Positions 7,327 through 20,179 of a stretch of DNA of 20,319 nt are shown here, piece after piece. The position numbers and the translations under genes are program-made. Origin of the DNA: a virus; the IMG/VR virus record IMGVR_UViG_3300046513_000157, positions 1 to 20,319 of that record; one strand, 5' to 3'. Numbering within the stretch: the first letter of the stretch is position 1; each line of letters begins with the position of its first letter. The notes beneath the pieces are model-generated. The model had not been told where the DNA came from. It saw nothing but the letters and a program-made list of their open reading frames with translations, and did no database searches.

Positions 7327-10300
7327 TCACTTGGTGTACGTGATCTTAAGTTGCGGAGGGTGGGAATCCCCGACACCGGAAAAGTACCCGTAGTAGGTCT
7401 TGTCGGTGCTGGATCCAAGATCCGCACCTAGCGTAATTCCACGATACGGGGTGGTCGCGTTCCAAGTTGAATTCCAGGACGACGGCAGGGTTACCCACTT
7501 TCCGGCGCCAACGGGCCACGAGGAAACGGTGAGGTTCACTCCGCTACCACCGAAAGACGTCGGCTCGGTGGTTCCGGTGAATGCACCGATGTGCGCCGTG
7601 CCACCCCCGTTGTAGTACCAGTGGTTGTTGTAGAGGTAGATCTCGACCTTGGAGACCTTCGCCGTGGAACCCATGTCTGTGAAGGGCTGGGTGCCGAAGT
7701 AGATCATCGACTTCTGCGTGCCCCAGGTGCTGGAGTAGTAGCCCTGGTACACGGTGCCGTCGGTGTATCCGGCGTTGCCGTACCGGCGGGACCACACCGC
7801 GTTGTACGTCTTGGTGTACGTCTTGGTGGCCGTCACGGCCGCGCCACCCGTGTTGTACACACCGTTCTCGGGCACGGCCGGACCGATGTCCTCGACGTAA
7901 AAGTCCGAGGATTGCGCGGGGATGTAGTTGCGCAATCCCCAGCCGGTGGCGTTGCCTGCGTGCTGCGTCGCAGTCCAGAGGAGCCTGTGGTCGCCTGGCG
8001 CCAGTGCCGTGGTGCTGCTGTACAGGCCGCCCGCGTCGGAGGAGCAGACGATGATGCCTTCCACGGCGGTGGTGCCGTCGGTCCCTCCGCCGTCGTAGTA
8101 CATCCCGAAGCAGCGGGCGATGATCTGGTCCGTCACCCTTGGGCTGGCACCGGTCGGGTTCATTAGCGTGCACCCGTTGACGGACGTCGTCGTGGCGGCG
8201 ACGTTGATGCGGTTCTCCAATACTTGGTTACCTGTACCGCCGTTGAAGTCGAACTGGGATCGGGCCACGATGCGGTACATGCGGCCCTCGACGGCTGTGA
8301 AGGCCAACTCGATGAGTCCGGTTTCGGTGGTGTAGTAAGTCGACGAGGTCGGCTTGTTCGTCCAGCCGCGCTCGTAGGTGACCATGCCCCACGGCATGTT
8401 CCACAGCAGCGCTCCCAGTTCCTGTCCCTGGTACCAGATCTGTCCGGTCGGGTCATCGGAGGGTGCCCCCGCCGGGCGCTGCGGGGTGAAGATCGACTTG
8501 AAGGTGCCCACGCCGTTGGGGTCGATGCTCGCTGCTCCGCCCGCGAAGGTGGCGTAGGCGTTGGACGTGGTCAGTTCCGTGCCGAGTGATCCGTCCGGCC
8601 CGAACAGCCGGACACCGGCGGCCGAGATGTCCGTCGCGCCGTAGCCCTCGCGCATGACGAGGACGTCGTCCACGCAGATGTAGGAGAACGACGAGGTGGA
8701 CAGCCCATACGAGCCGGGGTTCAACTGCTGGAAGGTGACCCGGCCCCACAGTGCCCCGGTGGGCGCCGTCATCTCGAAGATGTCCTCGGTGTACGCCGCA
8801 GCGTTGTAGGTGACGTCGTTGACCCCAGCCATCTGGTCGGTCCAGGTGACCTTGTCCGGGCTGGTCTCGAAGGTGACGTGCAGGTGCCCGATGCCGTAGT
8901 ACCAGTACCGGAACATGTACGTCTGCCCGGCGACGACTGGGAAGGGGTCGCTGGTCGCGGTAGCGGTGCCGGTGTTGTTGACCCCCAGGGTCGCCTTGCC
9001 CTGACCGGAGCGTGCCGGGTACCCGCCTTGAGCGATCTCGATCTTGGCGACCGTTGTGGCCAGCGTGCTGTCGCTCTGGGTCAGGGTCCAGCCGACGCGG
9101 GAGGCATCCTCGAAGCCCGGGTTGGTGACCATGTTGCCGGTCACGGAACCCAGGGAGAGGTGCGAGGCGTTGACGTTGCCGAGGTTGATGTTGGCCGAGT
9201 TGACCTGGCCGGTCTCGACGACCTCGATGGTGAACATGTCCATCTCGGCCGCACCGGATCCGCCGTTGTAGTTCATGTAGAGGCAGGGGCTGATGTACTT
9301 CACGTTCTGGTGCAGCGTGGCCGGGGCGGTCGGGTTGTTGGCCGGGTTGCCTCCCGTGGGGGTGGCGGAGGATCCCTTGATGTAGCCGGTGTAGGTGACC
9401 CATGCACCACCAGTGGTGAGAGGCACTCCCTTGGCCGCGACGTAGTGCTGGTTGGAGACGGCGTTGGCTCCGGTGGTGCTGACCAGGGTCACGCCGTCGG
9501 ACGCGATGCCGGTGACGCCCGCGTAGAAGTTCTGGTTGGTGCCTGGGGTGGAGTTGTCAGAGACCTGGCGGACCCGGCAGGTCACGCGGTAGGTGACGGT
9601 CGGGTCGAAGGGTATGAGCAGGTCCGGGCGGTAAGCGCCCTGGACGTACCCGGCGCAGCGCATGACGAAGCCGCCGGAGGCCGCGTCGGTCTTGGATACC
9701 GAGGTTATGGTGCCGCCCGCACCTGCGGCGTTAAGCCACTTCGAGGCGCTGGTGCCGAAGTCGTAGAACTTCTGGCCCACCAGACCCTGAAGACCTGCGG
9801 AGAACTTGTCGACGGTAAGCGTTCCGGCCTTGATGCTGCTGGCGTCCAGGTTGGTGATGCTGGCCAGGCTCGCGTCGATCGTGCCTGTCTTGATCGAGCC
9901 ACCGTTGATCGTGGTCGTGGTCGGGATGGTGCCGTTGCTCAACTGCCCGGCGGGGACGCTGACGCTCGCGCCGATGGAGCCGGTGACTGTGGTAGCGCTG
10001 CCTGCGGAGGTCGCCGAGGTAGCCGTGGTCGCGGTTGTGGCGCTGGATACTGTTCCAGTGACCTGTGCGCCGGGGACGGCGACGCCCGCGCCGAGGGATC
10101 CCGTGACGGTCCCTGCGCTGCCCGCTGAAGTTGCGCTGCCTGCCGTGGTAGCACTCGCGACCGTACCGCTCACGTTGCCGCCACCGATGACCAAATTGGT
10201 GGCGTCGATCTGGGTTGCAGTCAACTTGCCGACGGTGATCTTGCTGGCGTCGATGCTGGCGATGACACCGCTCTGGGCCGTGATCGTTCCGGCCGCCATC

Positions 10301-11703
10301 TGGTTGGCTGTGATCGTGTTCGCCGCGATCTGGTTGGCGGTGATGGTGTTGGCTGCGAGCCGGTCGCCCGTGATCGAGCCCGCCAGGATCTGGGTAGCCG
10401 TCAACGTCCCGGCGGTGATCTTCGAGGCGTCCAGCGATCCGGCTGCGATGCGCGCGGCGTTGAGCGTGCCGACGTTGATCTTGCCCGCGTCGAGGTCGGC
10501 GATCTTGGCGTTGTTGATGGCCGCGTCGGCGATCTGTGCGTTGCCGATGGCGCCGTTGATGATCTTCGCCGAGCCGATCGTGGCGTCGGCGAGCTGTGTG
10601 CCGGTGACCGCGTTGTTGGCGATGTTCGTGGTGCCGACGGCCAGGGCCGCCAGCTTGCCTGCCTCGACAGCCCCGTTGGCTATGTTCGCGGCCAGGACGG
10701 CGTTCGCCGCCAGCTTGGTGTTGTCGATGGCGCCGACTGCGATCTTCGCCGCCGACAGTGAGCCGTCGAGGATGTCCTGGGCGACGGCCTGCTTGGGGGT
10801 GTCCGAGTTCGAGCCGGACGGGGCCGAGGCGATGCCGACCTTGGAGTATGCGACCAGCCGGTAGTAGTAGGCGCTGGCGTAGTTCTGGATGGAGTCGTAC
10901 AGGAAGTCCGGGCCGGGCAGCGTGCCGATCACGACAGGGTTGGAGAACGCCGAGGTGGTGTCCCGCTGCACCTGCACGTGGGAGAAGATCGCAGGCATTG
11001 CCGTGCCGGTGTTGTCCTTGCCGTCCCAGGTGACCCGCAGGCCGCCGAGTACTCCGAGGACCCCCGGCGCGGAGGGCACCGGAGGCGGGGTGGAAGCGGA
11101 CGCCGTGGTGAGGTTGGCGCTCGCCCACAGGGAGGTGTTGTTGCTGGTGTCGAAGGCCGCGACCCTCACGTAGAGGGCCACGCCGGTATTAAGTCCGTCG
11201 AGGAGGACCAGGTCCTCCGTGGTGACGAAGCCGCCGCTCCAGTTGCTGTTGTCGTAGGAGGTTTGGAGCAGGTAGTGGGACAGGTCGGTGAGGGCGGTCC
11301 CGTCCTGGTTCTCCGTGGGCGGGGTCCAGCTCGCTGTCACGCGGGCCCGGGTGGCGCCCTCGGCGGTGACGTACTGCACCGTGGTGAGGGTGAGGGCGGT
11401 GGGCTCCTTCGGCGGAAGGACATCGAGCGTCTCTCCGCTGGGCAGGTCGTCGACCTGGTCCTGAACGGCCTTGATGCCGAGCGGGGAGTAGACCGGCTTG
11501 GTGATGTCACCGCCGGAGAACTGCACCCACAGCGTCTGGCCGACCGGCGGGATCGTGTTGGTCGGGGAAGCGGGGGCGGCCCAGGCGCTTTCGGCGTTTC
11601 CGAGTACCTGCGGAATGAGCAGCGTGACGCGGGCTTCATTCAGCGGGTCCTGGTTATTGGCAACGCTCGCCCGGTACATTCCCAGCACCGGATCAGCCGA
11701 CAT
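7327..11703 (-). CDS. Baseplate spike OB-fold fused to a giant multidomain tail fibre
   Basis: This 1458-residue protein starts at ATG 11703 and overlaps the hub gene by 11 bases. Residues 1-90 look like the gp5/VgrG-type OB-fold that sits under the hub (A-R-V-T-L-L-I-P-Q-V-L-G, then G-Q-T-L-W-V-Q-F-S-G-G-D). Two Fn3-like domains follow (about 100-200 and 205-300). Then come about 18 ten-residue repeats (about 310-505), a Thr/Ala/Ser-rich double repeat (about 510-590), a jelly-roll (about 650-840) and a CBM4/9-like domain opening N-M-V-T-N-P-G-F-E-D (about 858-1020). A C1q-like beta domain (about 1030-1280) and a C-terminal domain ending P-P-Q-L-K-I-T-Y close the protein. The hub upstream supports the spike role and the rest suggests receptor binding. 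Spike proteins normally end in a short needle; a fusion of this size is unusual. No separate PAAR-like tip gene is visible. Confidence 0.85.
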   Translation of the reverse strand: MSADPVLGMYRASVANNQDPLNEARVTLLIPQVLGNAESAWAAPASPTNTIPPVGQTLWVQFSGGDITKPVYSPLGIKAVQDQVDDLPSGETLDVLPPKEPTALTLTTVQYVTAEGATRARVTASWTPPTENQDGTALTDLSHYLLQTSYDNSNWSGGFVTTEDLVLLDGLNTGVALYVRVAAFDTSNNTSLWASANLTTASASTPPPVPSAPGVLGVLGGLRVTWDGKDNTGTAMPAIFSHVQVQRDTTSAFSNPVVIGTLPGPDFLYDSIQNYASAYYYRLVAYSKVGIASAPSGSNSDTPKQAVAQDILDGSLSAAKIAVGAIDNTKLAANAVLAANIANGAVEAGKLAALAVGTTNIANNAVTGTQLADATIGSAKIINGAIGNAQIADAAINNAKIADLDAGKINVGTLNAARIAAGSLDASKITAGTLTATQILAGSITGDRLAANTITANQIAANTITANQMAAGTITAQSGVIASIDASKITVGKLTATQIDATNLVIGGGNVSGTVASATTAGSATSAGSAGTVTGSLGAGVAVPGAQVTGTVSSATTATTATSATSAGSATTVTGSIGASVSVPAGQLSNGTIPTTTTINGGSIKTGTIDASLASITNLDASSIKAGTLTVDKFSAGLQGLVGQKFYDFGTSASKWLNAAGAGGTITSVSKTDAASGGFVMRCAGYVQGAYRPDLLIPFDPTVTYRVTCRVRQVSDNSTPGTNQNFYAGVTGIASDGVTLVSTTGANAVSNQHYVAAKGVPLTTGGAWVTYTGYIKGSSATPTGGNPANNPTAPATLHQNVKYISPCLYMNYNGGSGAAEMDMFTIEVVETGQVNSANINLGNVNASHLSLGSVTGNMVTNPGFEDASRVGWTLTQSDSTLATTVAKIEIAQGGYPARSGQGKATLGVNNTGTATATSDPFPVVAGQTYMFRYWYYGIGHLHVTFETSPDKVTWTDQMAGVNDVTYNAAAYTEDIFEMTAPTGALWGRVTFQQLNPGSYGLSTSSFSYICVDDVLVMREGYGATDISAAGVRLFGPDGSLGTELTTSNAYATFAGGAASIDPNGVGTFKSIFTPQRPAGAPSDDPTGQIWYQGQELGALLWNMPWGMVTYERGWTNKPTSSTYYTTETGLIELAFTAVEGRMYRIVARSQFDFNGGTGNQVLENRINVAATTTSVNGCTLMNPTGASPRVTDQIIARCFGMYYDGGGTDGTTAVEGIIVCSSDAGGLYSSTTALAPGDHRLLWTATQHAGNATGWGLRNYIPAQSSDFYVEDIGPAVPENGVYNTGGAAVTATKTYTKTYNAVWSRRYGNAGYTDGTVYQGYYSSTWGTQKSMIYFGTQPFTDMGSTAKVSKVEIYLYNNHWYYNGGGTAHIGAFTGTTEPTSFGGSGVNLTVSSWPVGAGKWVTLPSSWNSTWNATTPYRGITLGADLGSSTDKTYYGYFSGVGDSHPPQLKITYTK
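9935..10175 (-). repeat. Double Thr/Ala/Ser-rich coding repeat in the spike-fibre
   Basis: Two imperfect copies of about 37-40 residues, each starting V-(S/T)-G-T-V and ending with a V-x-V-P-(G/A)-x-Q segment, with a core of alternating Ala, Thr and Ser. Such stretches form slender trimeric shafts in fibres. Copy number may vary between relatives by recombination. Confidence 0.75.
10190..10770 (-). repeat. Array of about 18 ten-residue repeats in the spike-fibre
   Basis: The 30-base units encode a decapeptide close to (A/N)-(G/N)-x-(I/L/V)-x-x-x-x-(I/L)-A, for example ANTITANQIA followed by ANTITANQMA at about 10292-10351. The hydrophobic positions recur every ten residues, as expected for a beta-helical or beta-prism shaft. 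The DNA copies have diverged, so this is an old array rather than a fresh duplication, apart from the two near-identical units named above. Confidence 0.85.
11185..11193 (-). repeat. CTTAATACC word, copy 2 (in the spike-fibre gene)
   Basis: In frame as Leu-Asn-Thr in the stretch DGLNTGV of the first Fn3-like domain. The neighbouring codons are GC-rich. Confidence 0.7.
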
Positions 11704-13109: not shown

Positions 13110-13888
13110 CGCCCAGCCTTTCCGTTCTTGCCCAACTGCTCGGACGTCGACAGCGGGTCGCCGGAGTTAGGCAGCCGTGGGCCGATGATCGGTGCGTACT
13201 TGTTGCCGCCCTGCGGGGTCGGCAGCAGCGTCACGGTCAACTGGACCACGCAGCGCTGGGGGATCATCTGCTGAGTCCAGTGGGTGTACCGGACGTCCAA
13301 CTGCTGGATCACGCCGTAGAAGGACAGCGTCGACCCGATGACGACGTACACCGGGGTGTAGATCATCGGGCCTGCCGGGCCGGTCGAGAAGGAGCCCTTC
13401 CGGAAGTTGTCGATGGCGGACTGCTTGTCCGTCTCCTGGTTGCCCGAGACGGTCATCGGAGTCGCAATGCCCGTGATCTTGTACAGCGACAGGATGTCGT
13501 AAGCCACTCCGAACTCCGGAACCCACGTGAGGGCATCCCCGAACAACTTGCTGGAGTCCCACAACTCGTATGTCCGGTCGAATTGCAGGTTGAACTGCAA
13601 CGTCTGCTGGAGGGGCAGGATGAACTGCCCCGCCGTGACGTCGTTCTTCAATGCTGAATTCGGGTCGGTAAGGACACCCGAGTCGATACCGTGGGAGATG
13701 TCGAGTTCGCTAGGGTTGTACAGGAAGTTGCAGCGGTAGCGCACGCCGTTGATTGGCTTCTCCATGATGATGAAGCCGCGCGTCAACTTCTTGGTGGTGT
13801 CGAAACTGTGCCCGTCCTTCTGGAGAAACGGGATGCTCGCTATCCGGGGGTCGAAAGGACCGTTGTCTTCGATCTTGCTGGCTGCCAT
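13106..13888 (-). CDS. CIS-tube-like tube initiator / baseplate adaptor protein
   Basis: This 260-residue protein starts at ATG 13888, sharing one base with the tape-measure stop (TAATG). The pattern C-N-F-L-Y-N-P-S-E-L-D-I-S (about 53-65), a later segment Q-T-L-Q-F-N-L-Q-F-D-R-T-Y-E-L-W, and the strands S-F-Y-G-V-I-Q-Q-L-D-V-R-Y-T-H-W and R-C-V-V-Q-L-T-V-T-L match the beta-barrel of CIS-tube proteins (Afp7 type), which form the first ring between hub and tail tube. The tail (about 225-260) is Gly/Pro/Ser-rich and probably flexible. In eCIS proteins of this family a LysM domain follows the barrel; here LysM is encoded by the next gene. Alternative: another tube-like minor tail protein. The position after the tape measure fits the adaptor reading. 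Confidence 0.78.
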   Translation of the reverse strand: MAASKIEDNGPFDPRIASIPFLQKDGHSFDTTKKLTRGFIIMEKPINGVRYRCNFLYNPSELDISHGIDSGVLTDPNSALKNDVTAGQFILPLQQTLQFNLQFDRTYELWDSSKLFGDALTWVPEFGVAYDILSLYKITGIATPMTVSGNQETDKQSAIDNFRKGSFSTGPAGPMIYTPVYVVIGSTLSFYGVIQQLDVRYTHWTQQMIPQRCVVQLTVTLLPTPQGGNKYAPIIGPRLPNSGDPLSTSEQLGKNGKAGR

Positions 13889-16800
13889 TAGTTCCCTGCC
13901 GCGATGAGATTGATCCGGCTGTCTTCGGCGAGTGCGGTCATGAACTGCGTCGCCGCATCCCGTGCGGACGTCTGATCCATGGCGCCCTGCACCTGAACCA
14001 CGACGGCCCCGGAGTGGAAGTTGAGGGTGGCCTTACCACCCGAGGTATTAAGCCCGCCAATTCCGCCCGTGAGCGGGGTATTACTCGACAGCGCCTTTCG
14101 GATGGCGTCGGCCTGGTGCGCCGGGATAATCATTTCGCCCTTGTGGATGCGGGCGGTCTGGTCCACGTCGATATTCGTGGAGCCGACTGCGTATCCCTTA
14201 TAGCCTCCGCCGTTCGACATCGACTTGATACCCGGCACATTCGCCAGGGAGCCATAGCGCGAATCCGCATACCGCACACCGGCAATAATGTTGTCGACCG
14301 GGTTCCAAATGTTCTTGTGACCCGCCAGCGAATACGCGTTGAACGTCGAGTCGATCGTCTGGAGAATGCCCTTGGACGGGTGCCCGGCCTTGGCATTGCT
14401 GTCCCAGTTGTTCTGCGCGCGGGGGTTACCGCCGGACTCGTGCATGGCCATCGTGTTGACGTACCGCTCGTTGGAGGCGGTGTCCTTGTGCAGGATGCCG
14501 AGCGCCGACTTGATCCACGTCTTCAGGCTTCCGGAGGGCAGGGCACCGGCCGCGTTGTTGCCGTTGTCGGTGGTCTGCGACGAACCCTGTCCGGCGCCGA
14601 CTCCGGAGCCCACGTTGGCCGCACCGATCGAGGAGACCCCGGCCGCGATGGCGTCGACTTCTTCGGTGGAGCCGTACGAGCCGACGTCACCGCCGAAGCC
14701 CATGGTGGACAGTCGGTTGGAGTCGGAACCCGCAGTGTCGGAGTTGTCGTTGGTGAAGTCGCCGACGTTGCCGACCGCGCCAAGGATCCGGACAGCGTTG
14801 GTGAACTCGCCTGGCTTGTAGGACCGGACGCGCACCGAGGACCCTGTGTGCGGAGCCTCGATGACCCTGCCGTTGCCTATGCACATCACGACGTGGTGAG
14901 CGGGGTTGCCGTTGAAGAGCAGGTCACCCGCGCGCTCCTGGCCGAGCTTGACCGCCTTACCGGCCTTCTGCTGCTGCGCGGCCGTACGGGGCAGCGAGAC
15001 ACCGATCTGCTTGAAGGAGTACTGAAGCAAGCCGGAGCAGTCGAAGCCCTTCGGTGAGGCCCCACCCCAGACGTATTTCACGCCCAGGTACTTCATGGCG
15101 ACCTTGATGACGGCAGCGGCCGTCTTACCCGCGCCCTGCGTACCTGTGGCCACCGCGCCGGACTTGCCCGAGCCGGTGGCGGCCGAGGCGTTGCTCTCTC
15201 CAGCGCCACCGAAGATGCCGACACCCGCACCGATTGCACCACCAACCAGCGCGCCGACCCCGGTACCGATGACGGGGACGACGGAACCGACGGCTGCACC
15301 AGTCAGGGCGCCGGTCGCCGCGTCCACGCCGATGTGACCGGCCTTGTTGGCCTTCTTGCCGTGGACGTACTTGTCGACCAACTTCGAGCCGAAGTGGTGC
15401 GTGAGGTAGGCGCCGACGCCAAAGCCGCCAGCAGCGCCCAGGGCAGCCCCGGAAAGGTCCAGGGCACCTCCGAGCGCGCCGAAGCCAGCAGCCGGTCCTG
15501 TACCGCCTCCCAGGGCCGCGCGAGCAGCACCGAGCATGCCCCCGCCACCCCCACCTCCGAAGCCGCCGAGGCGGGCGACGCTGCCCAGGCCGCGCATCAT
15601 GCCGTAGGTGCCCATGGCAGAACCGGCAGCGGAGCCGACCATGGAACCGGCACCACCGGCCCAGCCGATCGGGGTGTCCAGGTGGGAACTCTTGAGGAAG
15701 GACTGGACGGCGGTGCTGAACTTGTCCAGGTAGTTGGTCGCGGTCTTCAGTCCATCGTTGAAGGGCTGGAGTGTGTTGACGTCCTGATTGCGCAGCGTTC
15801 CGGCCCGGTCCTGGAGGGCCTGCGCGTCGGAGTCGCCGATGTTCCACTTCTTCAACAGGGCCCTGGCACTCTTGTTGCCGGTGTTGGCCTTGGTCATCGT
15901 GGAGTCGTACTGCTTCTCGGACGCGCCGTTGATCTGGGCGCTGAGTATCCCCGTCAGTTCGCCCTTGACCTGCTGGAGGGTGCCCGCAGGCATGGTGCGA
16001 GCCAGCGACTGCATTACTGCGGAGCCGTCGCTGAGGGTGTCGTGGATCTGGTCCTTGTTCTTGATGCTTTTCAGCGACGACCAGCGCTGCATGACCTGCT
16101 GGGCGATCTGGCGGGGGTCCTGACGCTGCCCGTTCTTGATCGTCTGGATGCCGATGGCCTGGTTGGCGTAGTAGGACCCGGCCGTCCACGCACCCGTCAT
16201 ACCCTGGACGCGCTGTGCCTCCGAGACACCTGGGTTGAGGAATCCGGAGGACTTGGCGTAGTTCCATGCCGTGTTGAAGTTCGAGGAGCCTGGAGAACCG
16301 GCCGTGGACTGCGCGAGGGTCTGATAGGCGAGTCCCGCGTCCGTCGTGGACTGGGCGCCGAAGTTGTTGGTGAACGCCTGCTTCGCGGTCGCGCCGTAGG
16401 ACTGCGAGGAGATCTGGCCCGTCTGGTAGGTGACGCTGTCCATGAGGACCTTGTCGGGCATCTGCTTGGTGGCCCAGGCATAGGCGTCCTTGAGGCCGCC
16501 CTTGAGCGAGTAGGGGCTCTTGCGCTGGCCGCCGTTGTTCCCGGCACCCCCGCCCAGGCGCGGAGTGTTGGTGCCCGAGCCACCTGATCCGCCGGAGCCA
16601 CCAGAGCCGCCGTTGTTGGCCGCACCGCCGCCCTGGTTGGTCTGCCCGGAGAACGTGGCCCCACCTCCGTTGGAGGACGTCGTCATGCGCTGCTGGGTGC
16701 CCGCGCGGGGCGCGGTGGCCGGAGCGCTCGCACCGCCGTTGGGACGGCCGTGTGCGTAGTTGCTGGTGCCGTTCCAGACGTCGTTGGCGAGCATGCCGAA

Positions 16801-17013
16801 GCCCCGGGCGCCACTGGTGGACCCGGAGCCGTGGCTGTTCCATCCCTGATAGAGACCGGCAGCTCCCCCGCCGACCGTCTTGAACTTGGCGGCAGCCGTC
16901 TCCAAGCCCTTGTTCAGGGACTCGACGTTCTTCGCCAGTTTCGAGATCGCATCCTGGGCTTTGTTCCAGCCCAGGAGCGGTCCCTGTCCTGCCACCGTGC
17001 CTTCGTCAGCCAT
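13888..17013 (-). CDS. Tape measure protein with NlpC/P60 and lytic transglycosylase domains
   Basis: This 1041-residue protein starts at ATG 17013 with GAGGCGG about four bases upstream. A short coiled-coil start (about 17-47) leads to a Gly/Ser/Asn-rich linker (about 90-165), an alpha-helical middle (165-445) and a Gly/Ala-rich hydrophobic region (about 450-605), as in many tape measures. An NlpC/P60 peptidase domain spans about 630-745, with the D-C-S-G motif (Cys659), His706 or His707, and His722 as candidate catalytic residues. A lytic transglycosylase-like domain follows at about 826-925, with the likely catalytic Glu859 in M-H-E-S-G-G. The C-terminus carries the conserved tape-measure segment A-R-I-H-K-G-E-M-I-I-P-A-H-Q-A-D-A-I (about 954-971). 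The protein sets tail length and, when ejected, can open the wall with a peptide-cutting and a glycan-cutting activity. All key residues seem intact. Confidence 0.93.
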   Translation of the reverse strand: MADEGTVAGQGPLLGWNKAQDAISKLAKNVESLNKGLETAAAKFKTVGGGAAGLYQGWNSHGSGSTSGARGFGMLANDVWNGTSNYAHGRPNGGASAPATAPRAGTQQRMTTSSNGGGATFSGQTNQGGGAANNGGSGGSGGSGGSGTNTPRLGGGAGNNGGQRKSPYSLKGGLKDAYAWATKQMPDKVLMDSVTYQTGQISSQSYGATAKQAFTNNFGAQSTTDAGLAYQTLAQSTAGSPGSSNFNTAWNYAKSSGFLNPGVSEAQRVQGMTGAWTAGSYYANQAIGIQTIKNGQRQDPRQIAQQVMQRWSSLKSIKNKDQIHDTLSDGSAVMQSLARTMPAGTLQQVKGELTGILSAQINGASEKQYDSTMTKANTGNKSARALLKKWNIGDSDAQALQDRAGTLRNQDVNTLQPFNDGLKTATNYLDKFSTAVQSFLKSSHLDTPIGWAGGAGSMVGSAAGSAMGTYGMMRGLGSVARLGGFGGGGGGGMLGAARAALGGGTGPAAGFGALGGALDLSGAALGAAGGFGVGAYLTHHFGSKLVDKYVHGKKANKAGHIGVDAATGALTGAAVGSVVPVIGTGVGALVGGAIGAGVGIFGGAGESNASAATGSGKSGAVATGTQGAGKTAAAVIKVAMKYLGVKYVWGGASPKGFDCSGLLQYSFKQIGVSLPRTAAQQQKAGKAVKLGQERAGDLLFNGNPAHHVVMCIGNGRVIEAPHTGSSVRVRSYKPGEFTNAVRILGAVGNVGDFTNDNSDTAGSDSNRLSTMGFGGDVGSYGSTEEVDAIAAGVSSIGAANVGSGVGAGQGSSQTTDNGNNAAGALPSGSLKTWIKSALGILHKDTASNERYVNTMAMHESGGNPRAQNNWDSNAKAGHPSKGILQTIDSTFNAYSLAGHKNIWNPVDNIIAGVRYADSRYGSLANVPGIKSMSNGGGYKGYAVGSTNIDVDQTARIHKGEMIIPAHQADAIRKALSSNTPLTGGIGGLNTSGGKATLNFHSGAVVVQVQGAMDQTSARDAATQFMTALAEDSRINLIAAGN
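14044..14052 (-). repeat. CTTAATACC word, copy 3 (in the tape measure gene)
   Basis: In frame as Leu-Asn-Thr in GGLNTSGG near the C-terminus. A partial match (AATACC) lies 27 bases away in SSNTPL, in a locally more AT-rich stretch. Confidence 0.7.
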
Positions 17014-17177
17014 TGTCCGCCTCAGCAGTTCGCCTATTACGTTGCGCCTTGAACCACTTCACCCAGTGCAGGCGCTCTCGTACGGTCAACCGGCGAATTT
17101 CGCTGAGGCTCCAAGCCGGGGATAGCTCGACTAGTTGCTCGTATTCGAAGTACGTGTCGAAGTAGTTACAGGCCCTG
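17006..17177 (-). CDS. Frameshift-dependent C-terminal extension of the tail assembly chaperone
   Basis: A second frame, +1 (equivalently -2) relative to the gp26-like gene, is open from 17239 and ends with TGA at 17008-17006, overlapping the tape measure start as ATGGCTGA. From the overlap with the first frame it encodes about 56 extra residues that look like real protein: aromatic and acidic first (Y-F-D-T-Y-F-E-Y-E-Q-L-V-E-L), then S-P-A-W-S-L-S-E-I-R, then basic (R-E-R-L-H-W-V-K-W-F-K-A-Q-R). No ATG, GTG or TTG lies in the open frame before this conserved-looking part; the only candidates are internal (TTG, then GTG near its end). A fusion made by frameshifting, about 341 residues long, is the simplest reading. 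It is the pattern known for G/GT-type tail chaperones just before the tape measure. A one-base sequencing error would look the same. Confidence 0.7.
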
Positions 17178-18032
17178 AAACAGGTCCCCCACCTTGATGT
17201 AGAGGGGGACCTCCTTTCCGCACGAATCGTGCAGGAACTTCACATCATTGTATTGCGGGCCTGGCTGGTTCTTCTCAATTGCATCTAGGATCGACTGGCG
17301 GTCCATGATGCCGAGCGCGCGGGCGAAGTCGGGATTACCGGTGACGGCATTCTCGGAGCCGTCCGCTTCGACCACGGAAATGAGAACCCGGGAGAGCAGG
17401 AGGGTGTTCTGCTCGGAGTCGGTGGCGCGGTCGATGACGGCCAGGAGCGCTTCCTGGTCGCTGCCGACGGGCAGGCGTACGAACGCCTTGCGCCCCTTGC
17501 GCAGGGGTACCTCGAAGATGCGGGCGGAGGGGTCCTCCAGGCGCCGCACGGGGATCTCGTCCAGGGTGACCGTCAGGCGGAACTCCTCGCCGCACCACGG
17601 GCAGGAGTACTGGTCCCAGGTGATCTCGTCGCCGTAGGTCGCACGCCGGATCTCCATGAGGAGCATGTCGCGGTCGCCGAGCAGGAGGTTGGACAGCAGG
17701 GGGGCGCTGGTCTTCTCGTCGCCCACGGAGACGGTGCCTGCCGTGAGCAGGGTGGAGATGTACTTGCCGATACCACTCTGGCGGGCCTTGGTCAGGGCCT
17801 CCTCGTCGGCGCCGGTCAGTTCGCGGACCTCGGCGTCGTAGCGGACGGATGCGTAGTCGCTGCCCAGAACGTAGCCTCCCGGCAGGCTGAAATTGCCACC
17901 TGCCGGGAGGGTGATCTCGGGCTTGGCGACCTGTGCCCCGGCGTCGTTCAGAAGCGCCGTAATGGCGGCATTCGCTGCACCGGGGTTGGAGAGGGGGTTG
18001 GTGTACCCCTCGGTATTAAGGTCGTTAGCCAC
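17166..18032 (-). CDS. T4 gp26-like protein with a putative zinc site, likely tail assembly chaperone or baseplate hub factor
   Basis: This 288-residue protein starts at GTG 18032 with AGGAG eight bases upstream. It resembles the T4 gp26 baseplate family (PF12322 type): a central segment E-V-R-E-L-T-G-A-D-E-E-A-L (about 68-80), then L-L-G-D-R-D-M-L-L-M-E-I-R-R (about 117-130), and C-P-W-C at 144-147. A second pair, His268 and Cys271, sits near the C-terminus, so a C2HC zinc site is plausible. Its place between tube and tape measure is that of the tail assembly chaperone in tailed phages, and a second reading frame follows its stop as expected for a G/GT-type pair. The known T4 gp26 role is hub assembly. 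Which job this protein does is not settled by sequence; the two readings need not exclude each other. Confidence 0.8.
   Translation of the reverse strand: MANDLNTEGYTNPLSNPGAANAAITALLNDAGAQVAKPEITLPAGGNFSLPGGYVLGSDYASVRYDAEVRELTGADEEALTKARQSGIGKYISTLLTAGTVSVGDEKTSAPLLSNLLLGDRDMLLMEIRRATYGDEITWDQYSCPWCGEEFRLTVTLDEIPVRRLEDPSARIFEVPLRKGRKAFVRLPVGSDQEALLAVIDRATDSEQNTLLLSRVLISVVEADGSENAVTGNPDFARALGIMDRQSILDAIEKNQPGPQYNDVKFLHDSCGKEVPLYIKVGDLFQGL
17177..17192 (-). promoter_or_regulatory. Candidate +1 frameshift site
   Basis: The zero-frame codons here are GTG GGG GAC CTG TTT CAG, four codons before TAA (17168-17166). Two +1 slips re-pair well: tRNA-Gly on GGG-G (17189-17186) and tRNA-Phe on TTT-C (17180-17177). 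UUU-C is the type of +1 slip known from influenza PA-X. A purine run AAGGTGGGGG just upstream could act as an internal Shine-Dalgarno stimulator; a better match, AAAGGAGGT (17217-17209), lies further upstream. The exact slip site is inferred. Confidence 0.5.
18012..18020 (-). repeat. CTTAATACC word, copy 4 (start of the gp26-like gene)
   Basis: In frame as Leu-Asn-Thr at codons 5-7 (MANDLNTEG), close to the start codon, the only copy in a translation initiation region. Confidence 0.7.
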
Positions 18033-18068: not shown

Positions 18069-18620
18069 TTAGAAACTAACGGAAGACGACCCGACACTGT
18101 TAGCCAACTTGAACTCGAAGCCCTCGTGGGCGAGGGTCATTTGCTGGACGACGATCGCGTTGGCGCCAGCGTCGAGGTCCGAGAAGGCGACCGCCGTAGG
18201 CCACGCGTTGTAGACGCGGAATGCGGCCTTGGCCGGAGTGGTGCCGGAAGTCACCGGGTGGTCGAGCACCTTGATGTCGACCATGTGCCGGAATTCGGCA
18301 CCCGCCTTGCCGGAGCCGGTGCCCTGGATGACGGTGAACAACTGGCGCATCCAGTCCATCATCTGGCTGTCGCCGACCGCGAGGCCCTTGGACAACGTAA
18401 TAGGGGCGAAGTCGGACTGTCCGGGCATTTTCTGCGTTGTCGTGTTCATTCCACCCTCACGGTATGGAATGACCTCAGTCGTGACGTTCAGTCCCGAAAC
18501 GGACATGAAGCCCATGCGGGCGAAGCCCTTGATGCCGGGGTGCTGGATCTGGACCTGGAACTTGAAGTTCCGCAACGGGTCCGTTGCGATGTGCCCCACG
18601 GTCGAAGTGGTCGTAGCCAT
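18069..18620 (-). CDS. Tail tube protein (gp19-like)
   Basis: This 183-residue protein starts at ATG 18620, with AGAGGT about ten bases upstream and 14 bases after the sheath stop. It belongs to the T4 gp19-like tube family (PF06841 type). The motifs are the early D-P-L-R-N-F-K-F-Q-V-Q-I (about 14-25), then F-M-S-V-S-G-L-N-V-T-T-E-V-I-P-Y-R-E-G-G (about 38-57), P-I-T-L-S-K-G-L, and the C-terminal Q-M-T-L-A-H-E-G-F-E-F. Hexameric rings of this protein stack to form the conduit for DNA and the tape measure. It follows the sheath directly, as in contractile tails. Only one tube gene is present, whereas eCIS usually carry two or more, which favours a phage. It ends with tandem stops TAA TAG. Confidence 0.95.
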   Translation of the reverse strand: MATTTSTVGHIATDPLRNFKFQVQIQHPGIKGFARMGFMSVSGLNVTTEVIPYREGGMNTTTQKMPGQSDFAPITLSKGLAVGDSQMMDWMRQLFTVIQGTGSGKAGAEFRHMVDIKVLDHPVTSGTTPAKAAFRVYNAWPTAVAFSDLDAGANAIVVQQMTLAHEGFEFKLANSVGSSSVSF

Positions 18621-18634
18621 CAGTCAGTTACCTC

Positions 18635-20179
18635 TCAGGAAGTGGCCGTCGAGTCGGTCGCGGAGGACCCACCCGAGTACTGGCCGATCTGGATCACGAT
18701 GAATTCGGCCGGGGTCTGGAGCGCCACACCGACGGAGATGTTCACGACGCCGTTGGCCACCGAGGCAGCCGTGTTGTTCGAGGAGTCGCAGGTGATGAAG
18801 TACGCCTGGTCCGGGGTGGTCCCGGCCAGCACGCCGGTCTGCATCAGCGTCAGCAGGTACTGCGTGATGACCGCGTTGACCTGGTCCCACAGGATCTGGT
18901 CGTTGGGCTCGAAGACCGCGAAGCGAGTCGCGTCGAGGATGCCCTTCTTGATCAGCATCAGCGAGCGGCGGATGGAGACGTACCGGTCCGGCATGCCGGT
19001 GGACAGCGTCCGGGCGCCGTAGATGACAAAGCCCGTGCCCGGCAGCGACTTCAGCACGTTGATGCCCGCGACGTTCAGCGCGTCCTGGTCGTCGTTGGAG
19101 AACCGGAACTCCGTGTCGAGCACACCCTTGAGGACGGTGTCGATACCGGCCGGAGGCTTCTGCACACCGCGCGAGGCGTCCGTACGGGAGTACTGACCGA
19201 GGACCGCACCGCCCGGGGGCAGCAGACGCGCCGAGCCGGAAGCAGTGGTGGCCGGGTCATTGACGATCAGCCACGGGCCGTAGACGGCCGCGTACGAGGA
19301 CGCCGACAGCGCGGAGCCGCCCGTGGACATGTTCTGGAGCGACAGCGCGTAGGAGTGGGCGTTGTCGGCCGAGGTCGACTTCACGCCGTCCACGACGACG
19401 AACACGTTGCCCTGGTCCTCGGCCCACGCGATGATCGGGTTGAGGACGGTCGCGTCGGTGACGCCCGGGACGTTGAGGATCAGGTTCGCCTCGACGGTCT
19501 CCAGCCGCTCCGTCGCGGTCGCCAGGTCCACGGCCGCAACACCGTCCGAGCCGCCAGCCAGGGGGATGCCGGTCGCTATGGCCGGGGCGTGGTTCGGGGC
19601 CCACGTGGTATTAAGCAGGCTCTGGACCTGGATGAAGGACGAGCCGGTGACCGGGGAGTTGATCAGGGCCTGCGCGTTGCGGGAGTCGGCCGGATCCAAC
19701 GAGACGTCGGTGAAGCGTTCCTTGAGGAAGGCCGCAGTGTCACCGCCGACGTAGACGAACAGGTCGAAGCGACCACCACCGGAGGACGCCGCCGTGACGT
19801 CGAGGTAGACACTGTTCCCCCACACGCCCGGGGAGATCGCCTTGACCTTGAGGGTGTCCTTCGCGGTCGTCTCGGTGTCCTGAAGAGTGACGGAGGCCGC
19901 GACCGCGTCGGAGGCCGCCGCACGCACGATGTACGCCGCGTTGCCGCCGTTGTTGAAGTAGGAGTAGACGGCGAACGGGAGCAAGTCCGAGGTGTCGCCG
20001 AAGGCGCCGAAGGTGGCCACGTACTGCGACCAGGACGACACCAGCGTGGGAGCCAGCGGGCCGCCCTGCTTGTTCTTGCCGACGAACGCCGCAACGGACT
20101 CGCCCGGTGTGTTTACGGTCTGGCTGAGCGGGGCCAGAGTCTCACTGATGTAGACACCCGGCCGCTTGTAGACAGTCAT
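18635..20179 (-). CDS. Contractile tail sheath protein
   Basis: This 514-residue protein starts at ATG 20179 with AGGAG about seven bases upstream. It is a tail sheath protein (PF04984 type). The N-terminal M-T-V-Y-K-R-P-G-V-Y-I-S-E-T is typical, as are the segment N-G-G-N-A-A-Y-I-V-R-A (about 72-82), the central G-S-D-G-V-A-A-V-D-L and the C-terminal domain (about 360-500) with V-I-Y-G-A-R-T-L, R-Y-V-S-I-R-R-S-L-M-L-I and A-L-Q-T-P-A-E-F-I-V-I. The C-terminal domain carries the linker arms that hold the sheath lattice together. The protein contracts round the tube to drive it through the host envelope. Its presence proves a contractile tail. The length is normal for the compact sheaths of P2-like and CIS-like systems and shorter than T4 gp18. 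Confidence 0.97.
   Translation of the reverse strand: MTVYKRPGVYISETLAPLSQTVNTPGESVAAFVGKNKQGGPLAPTLVSSWSQYVATFGAFGDTSDLLPFAVYSYFNNGGNAAYIVRAAASDAVAASVTLQDTETTAKDTLKVKAISPGVWGNSVYLDVTAASSGGGRFDLFVYVGGDTAAFLKERFTDVSLDPADSRNAQALINSPVTGSSFIQVQSLLNTTWAPNHAPAIATGIPLAGGSDGVAAVDLATATERLETVEANLILNVPGVTDATVLNPIIAWAEDQGNVFVVVDGVKSTSADNAHSYALSLQNMSTGGSALSASSYAAVYGPWLIVNDPATTASGSARLLPPGGAVLGQYSRTDASRGVQKPPAGIDTVLKGVLDTEFRFSNDDQDALNVAGINVLKSLPGTGFVIYGARTLSTGMPDRYVSIRRSLMLIKKGILDATRFAVFEPNDQILWDQVNAVITQYLLTLMQTGVLAGTTPDQAYFITCDSSNNTAASVANGVVNISVGVALQTPAEFIVIQIGQYSGGSSATDSTATS
19607..19615 (-). repeat. CTTAATACC word, copy 5 (in the sheath gene)
   Basis: In frame as Leu-Asn-Thr in SLLNTTWAP, inside very GC-rich coding sequence where CTC or CTG and AAC would be expected. 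Confidence 0.7.

Follow-up and report, generated by a model that had tools for sequence, protein, structure and literature searches.

A candidate +1 frameshift at UUU_C in a gp26-family tail gene of contractile-tailed phages

The stretch of DNA analyzed here, positions 1 to 20,319 of IMG/VR virus record IMGVR_UViG_3300046513_000157 (20,319 nucleotides, hereafter the window), carries on its minus strand the tail module of a contractile-tailed phage. Its gp26-like gene (17166..18032, minus strand), which opens with a GTG start and encodes 288 aa, is followed by a +1 reading frame that leads into the tape measure gene. Comparison with relatives indicates, at a probability of close to nine in ten, that this gene yields a short protein and, by a +1 shift at UUU_C, a long one, the two acting as tail assembly chaperones of the TAC-N/TAC-NC type. 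A sequence-only reading had proposed a conserved frameshift that gives the gp26-like chaperone a long form, and the comparison strongly supports this prediction. Frameshifting in tail chaperone genes is a known kind of event; what appears to be new here, and is well supported by the aligned loci, is a +1 shift at UUU_C in a chaperone of the gp26 family, in contrast to the lambda G/GT system, which shifts by -1.

In the mechanism that we infer, including slippage by ribosomes, its frequency, the role of an upstream Shine-Dalgarno-like stretch and the chaperone function, most ribosomes would terminate at the frame-0 stop (TAA, 17166..17168, minus strand) and release the short gp26-like protein, a proposed TAC-N (G-like) chaperone. 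In a minority, the P-site Phe tRNA on UUU (17180-17178) would move one base forward onto UUC within the slip site TTT_C (17177..17180, minus strand), which is defined by an alignment of 115 loci. The slipped ribosomes would continue in the +1 frame to 17009, producing a long form of 341 aa (with TTTC translated as F) that carries a small C-terminal domain, the T-like extension of 56 residues (17009..17176, minus strand). Short and long forms may then behave as lambda G/GT-like chaperones, covering the tape measure protein and bringing in subunits of the tail tube.

Conservation of the +1 frame and its slip site

The locus set was not exhaustive: relatives were taken as the best 80 of 404 in one search and the best 80 of 526 in another, and 24 new loci from the latter were analyzed together with all 9 from a search of genome contigs. 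Queries with proteins of PA5oct, Atu_ph07, SP-15, Ramlibacter and T4 gp51 contributed 3, 1, 1, 1 and 10 loci, respectively. Five of the relatives (six records) are phages isolated on Streptomyces, and others come from contigs of Terracoccus, Streptomyces and Nonomuraea genomes. A nucleotide search of phage records returned no match. The loci include near-identical copies of the window; 90 distinct long forms were reduced to 64 representatives at <90% identity and 36 at <70% identity. The extension was assessed in 110 loci, window included, in which the next stop lies within the sequence (79 from a first set and 31 from a second). Seven of the 86 loci of the first set were too short, and L170 and L171 of the second were left out, their extension being in the -1 frame.

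In the window, the open +1 frame spans 17239 to 17009 and ends at a TGA (17008-17006) that overlaps the ATG of the tape measure gene (17013-17011); the coordinates of this frame and of the gene stop at 17166, the length of the extension and the ATGGCTGA overlap were all given correctly in the sequence-only reading. Past the frame-0 stop, the +1 frame stays open for 44-79 codons in 110 of 110 loci, and an early stop, which would have broken the second frame, occurs in none of them. Among the 36 representatives, base-shuffled extensions stay open with a mean probability of 0.15 (log10 product -39), and in no representative does the -1 frame remain open over at least 45 codons. The open +1 frame is thus genuine and lies well outside what chance would produce. 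Within the close family, represented by 43 distinct sequences, the extension read in +1 has a ratio of nonsynonymous to synonymous substitution rates (dN/dS) of 0.16. Reading it in the two alternative frames (40 sequences of equal length) gives 2.0 and 2.6, and the value for the gene body is 0.30. Heterozygosity in the same 43 sequences reaches 0.168 at third positions versus 0.045 and 0.053 at the other two. The extension thus evolves as a protein, under purifying selection, in the +1 frame only, and the conservation that had been proposed as a check of the frameshift is borne out. Low synonymous variation over the last six codons was considered as extra support and dropped, as 70 of 281 windows were as low or lower.

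The shift point is conserved as well. In the frame-0 protein alignment, the column of window residue F285 holds a TTT codon in 115 of 115 loci, and the following base is C in 113 and T in the other 2. Other columns with Phe in at least half of the loci mostly use TTC: in the 36 representatives, TTT occupies the slip column in every case, whereas the same genes contain 33 TTT and 192 TTC codons elsewhere. The next codon is CAG in 61 loci, the window among them, CGC in 27, CTC in 15 and others in the remainder; CGN follows TTT in 30 of the 115 loci and 18 of the 36 representatives. Between one and six codons separate TTT from the frame-0 stop, which is the 4th codon after TTT in the window and the 2nd to 7th in the representatives, and which reads TAA in 68, TGA in 34 and TAG in 13 of the 115 loci. 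Since TTT followed by C (or T) is invariant, and the Phe tRNA can re-pair one base downstream, the shift is read as +1.

Upstream of this site, a G-rich, Shine-Dalgarno-like stretch, AAGGTGGGGG (17186..17195, minus strand), ends 5 nt before TTT and might act as a stimulator. Pairing with the anti-Shine-Dalgarno sequence at a gap of 2-8 nt before TTT exceeds that of synonymous shuffles among the 36 representatives (3/1000 as low), compared with 252/1000 at 10-20 nt and 59/1000 at 25-33 nt. Bacterial release factor 2 genes use an upstream Shine-Dalgarno-like element for +1 shifting (PMC5009743). The window resembles this prfB-type cassette in the placement of the stretch and differs from it in that its shift codon, like that of the representatives, is not directly before the stop. 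A perfect Shine-Dalgarno sequence, AAGGAGGT, was also seen at 17216-17209 (minus strand), about 30 nt upstream of the slip site, with no start codon at the usual spacing; strong pairing at this distance in relatives is largely accounted for by the encoded residues.

Family and function of the products

The short form belongs to the same family as T4 gp26 and gp51 by both Pfam (PF12322, E 3.2e-10; 40.5 bits, above the curated cut-off of 24.5) and PHROG (phrog_150, baseplate hub, E 1.2e-12). C144, C147 and C271 are invariant among 22 aligned gp26-like sequences including the window, while a second proposed zinc site retains one Cys only. W307, L315, E319 and R320 of the extension are invariant across 16 aligned long forms, window included. 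In T4, both gp26 and gp51 match PF12322 (8.8e-64 and 3.9e-52) and each other (BLASTP, 2e-6), and the short gp26 (208 aa) is accompanied by a longer gp51 (249 aa, with 48 residues beyond the Pfam match). The T4 pair is encoded by two separate genes on opposite strands that are not next to the tape measure gene 29, whereas the window has one gene with a proposed +1 frameshift. T4-like tail chaperones were reportedly identified by Vladimirov, Gautam and Davidson in 2022, judging by the title of their paper, and the proteins in question are reported to be gp26 and gp51.

A fold model of the short form (predicted local distance difference test score, pLDDT, of 87) was compared with 997 aligned PDB chains. 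The best was the HK97 tail assembly chaperone 2OB9 (Z 6.7, 96 residues, root-mean-square deviation 3.6) and the second best YqbN 3KLU (Z 6.4, 99 residues, 4.0), which we take to be a tail chaperone as well; the next chain reached Z 3.9. In BFVD, T4-like baseplate hub assembly proteins and a baseplate hub subunit of SP-15 are among the best matches of the short form. A Foldseek search of PDB with a gp51 model gave no match at E<=0.001, and blocks over the last 49 residues of that model have a mean pLDDT of 53-64. Gene position, the short/long design and family membership favor a predicted tail assembly chaperone pair, and gene position together with the modest fold match likewise favors a putative short/long pair of the G/GT type.

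A reading in which the conserved frameshift is real but yields structural proteins of the baseplate hub, and not chaperones missing from the virion, is unlikely in our view. The gene is annotated "baseplate protein" in BRock, the Pfam and PHROG families are named after the base plate or baseplate hub, and a T4 review mentions genetic support for gp26 within the hub (PMC3004832). In the same review, however, gp26 and gp51 appear among the chaperones of hub assembly, and gp51 is placed outside the final particle (PMC3004832), and the short/long design and the gene position fit tail assembly chaperones.

The gp26-like gene lies between the major tail tube and tape measure genes in the window, the isolates and the representatives. 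In the window, the tail sheath gene (18635..20179, minus strand; PF04984, E 1.5e-14) and the tail tube gene of the T4 gp19 family (18069..18620, minus strand; PF06841, E 1.2e-31) precede it, the tape measure gene (13888..17013, minus strand; 1041 aa, NlpC/P60 and SLT domains) follows, and further tail and baseplate genes are found downstream of the latter on the same strand. An open reading frame (ORF) of 1458 aa (7327-11703, minus strand) has NAKIADLDAGKINVGTLNAARIAAGSLDASKITAGTL-type repeats and likely encodes a tail fibre or tip protein. Tube and sheath genes, sought anywhere on the forward strand of each locus, upstream or not, were present in 34 and 33 of the 36 representatives, the misses being loci with <1200 nt upstream, and a downstream ORF of at least 400 codons was present in 32. 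Two loci, L073 and L143, have no such ORF despite 4843 and 2401 nt of downstream sequence, and their tape measure gene may be broken or otherwise arranged.

The extension domain in other gp26-like systems

Sequences resembling the extension were also found outside the phages of actinobacteria. A hidden Markov model (HMM) of the actinophage extension was run against 4765 six-frame ORFs of 38 loci, among which L163-L169 were training sequences and some regions were present twice; at E<0.1 it found only extension ORFs or gp26-like C-termini. Nine sequences from other systems (six in-frame, two in -1 and L184 in +1) were assembled as a comparison set, which the actinophage extension profile matched at E 7.7e-9 and which in turn matched the gp51 C-terminus at E 3e-4; none of 150 column-shuffled decoys was as good in the former comparison, and none of 150 decoys in the latter. 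An alignment of gp51 matched the long-form alignment weakly (hhalign probability 5.9, E 0.0063), and a PHROG search with eight extension pieces returned gp51's own families and a few weak matches (E 0.01 to 0.3) to functionally uncharacterized families.

The domain is reached in different ways. In 11 of 11 loci, L185-L195 (two from a phylum search around the Terracoccus genome, nine from an order search around the Ramlibacter genome), it forms the end of the gp26-like ORF and is read in frame with it. One of them, L191 (with its surroundings L196; gp26-like protein at L196:7908-8636), adjoins eCIS_core, Pvc16_N and AAA genes and is therefore taken as an extracellular contractile injection system (eCIS). 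In the Ramlibacter-like loci L170/L201, L171 and L183, the domain lies in the -1 frame after a run of nine T (L170:5762-5770), which would act either through a ribosomal -1 shift or through transcriptional slippage. L201 contains an AAA ATPase with a winged-helix domain, two tube genes and a spike-type gene, a gene content which suggests that it is an injection system too; eCIS_core was not seen among nine ORFs tested there. L184, which came from the phylum search, combines TTT TTT TGG with an extension in +1, and Bacillus phage SP-15 has TTT TTT CAC with an open +1 frame. In PA5oct (L173), Phosso (L174), Atu_ph07 (L005) and the viral contig L178, TTTTTTC is found shortly before the stop of the gp26-like gene, and the -1 frame remains open for 73-77 codons, without a significant match to the extension.

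Similar shift sites have been described elsewhere. Phage tail genes shift by -1, -2 or +1, and the myovirus HSTV-2 very likely by +1 (PMC5009743), while the paper on PRFect states that a general motif for forward shifts has not yet been identified (PMC10885494). The chaperone gene of phage Adele (Vandenendeviridae/Andersonviridae) resembles that of the window in that its conserved downstream frame is routinely annotated as a hypothetical gene, and in its type, too, the 3' end of the first ORF carries a T-rich site, the shift however being -1 at GTTTTT (PMC12846349). For the haloviruses of the HF1 group, a TTT-CGC +1 site near the stop was proposed in 2020 from an alignment of six genomes (PMC7230728). 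Like the window, this group (HF2 HrrHF2_550/545) is contractile-tailed and has a +1 frame and TTT-C near the stop, but its host is archaeal. The sequence of Halorubrum phage HF2 (L213:33028-33811) reads AAG TTT CGC AGA TAG with the extension in +1. Its chaperone belongs to PHROG families 14268 and 12163 and gave no significant match with the gp26-like and extension models (E 0.15 or worse), so that HF2 apparently uses the same motif independently, in a chaperone of another family. In influenza PA-X, +1 slippage at UCC_UUU_CGU was shown by mass spectrometry (PMC3498833). The proposed P-site UUU followed by C and the proposed +1 direction are shared with such sites, whereas PA-X involves eukaryotic ribosomes and prefers CGN in the A site; the window, with CAG, does not have the CGN form. 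A literature search, conducted mostly on titles and the openings of abstracts and covering few subscription journals, found no description of a UUU_C site in bacterial phages, and the terms frameshift, chaperone, tail and baseplate were all absent in a search of the BRock paper.

Alternative explanations and implications

It is very unlikely that the second frame constitutes a small gene of its own, with translation beginning at a dedicated start codon or through re-initiation that depends on the stop upstream. The records of BRock, LuckySocke, Alone3 and GiJojo do show two separate genes, the second a hypothetical gene in its own right, and in that of pSt2308 the extension is unannotated (loci L001-L004 and L006). 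An ATG, GTG or TTG lies between the slip site and the conserved Trp in 23 of the 110 loci, and if the overlap upstream of the slip site is included, 73 offer a possible +1-frame start. The annotated starts differ, however, being TTG at +34 from the frame-0 stop in GiJojo and BRock and ATG at +76 in LuckySocke and Alone3, and the latter would cut off the segment through the conserved Trp. Possible starts vary even among close relatives, the in-frame fusion in all of L185-L195 places the domain on the same protein, and a separate gene leaves the invariant TTT-C unexplained. The earlier claim that no ATG or GTG precedes the protein-like part holds in the window, which has no TTG there either, the first candidate being the TTG at 17089, past the conserved Trp. 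For the relatives it stands in part: an own start codon was rejected on the grounds that 87 of 110 loci (window included) have none between slip site and Trp, though only 37, the window again among them, have none in the whole open +1 frame.

A shift of -2, or a short hop over the stop, would reach the same frame and is highly improbable. Phage Mu provides a precedent for -2 (PMC5009743), and the original proposal had left the choice at "+1 (or -2)". The latter half of that proposal was given up because the Phe tRNA, two bases upstream, would meet TGT in the window; neither re-pairing nor a conserved element for -2 was found, whereas the invariant TTT followed by C or T fits P-site re-pairing one base forward. 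The codons that intervene between TTT and the stop, one to six in number, also argue against a hop. Frameshift errors do occur in draft genomes, and a sequencing error, or else transcriptional slippage, might split one gene in this manner. Either would be scarcely credible here: a base error, raised at the outset as a possible objection, is excluded because 115 loci, drawn from isolates, genome contigs and metagenomes, all have the break at one and the same codon, and the slip site of the window consists of only three consecutive T.

The +1 shift in a chaperone gene thus remains the preferred reading, and the frequent possible starts are one of several points that weigh against it. The Shine-Dalgarno-like signal is modest (3/1000), with relatedness among the representatives uncorrected, and a stimulatory downstream RNA structure was rejected, as z scores in the 36 representatives ranged from -2.2 to 1.6 and no structure recurred consistently. 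The fold matches 2OB9 and YqbN each cover a different region of the model (102-260 and 31-135), both at Z <8, and are therefore support rather than proof. At E 0.1, the extension HMM missed the gp26-like loci L183, L189, L191, L192, L194 and L195 as well as the extensions of the jumbo phages and SP-15. In profile matches, the actinophage extension was not significantly similar to the T4 gp51 C-terminus (52 of 150 decoys as good), to the -1 extensions of the jumbo phages (41 of 150) or to SP-15 (42 of 150).

On a broader scale, it is reasonably likely that one chaperone family keeps the Phe anchor, the shift point and the C-terminal domain and varies the access to that domain: by +1 at UUU_C in actinobacterial phages, by a -1 step at T9 in Ramlibacter-like injection-system loci, by in-frame fusion in eCIS and relatives, and by separate genes in T4. 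If so, bacterial ribosomes would shift at a +1 site of the PA-X type, UUU_C, across many phage lineages, with the upstream Shine-Dalgarno-like stretch helping.

Few bacterial viruses are known to shift frame by +1 at UUU-C, and the family described here infects Streptomyces-type soil bacteria. Internal +1 frameshift sites are hard to find, and a UUU_C site conserved in 115 loci may be of use in this respect. The five isolated Streptomyces phages likely possess one frameshifted gene instead of the annotated arrangement, and the annotation of BRock, LuckySocke, Alone3, GiJojo and pSt2308 would be corrected. Finally, the natural series of +1, -1, fused and separate genes would provide a means to ask why tail chaperones need short and long forms and in what ratio.

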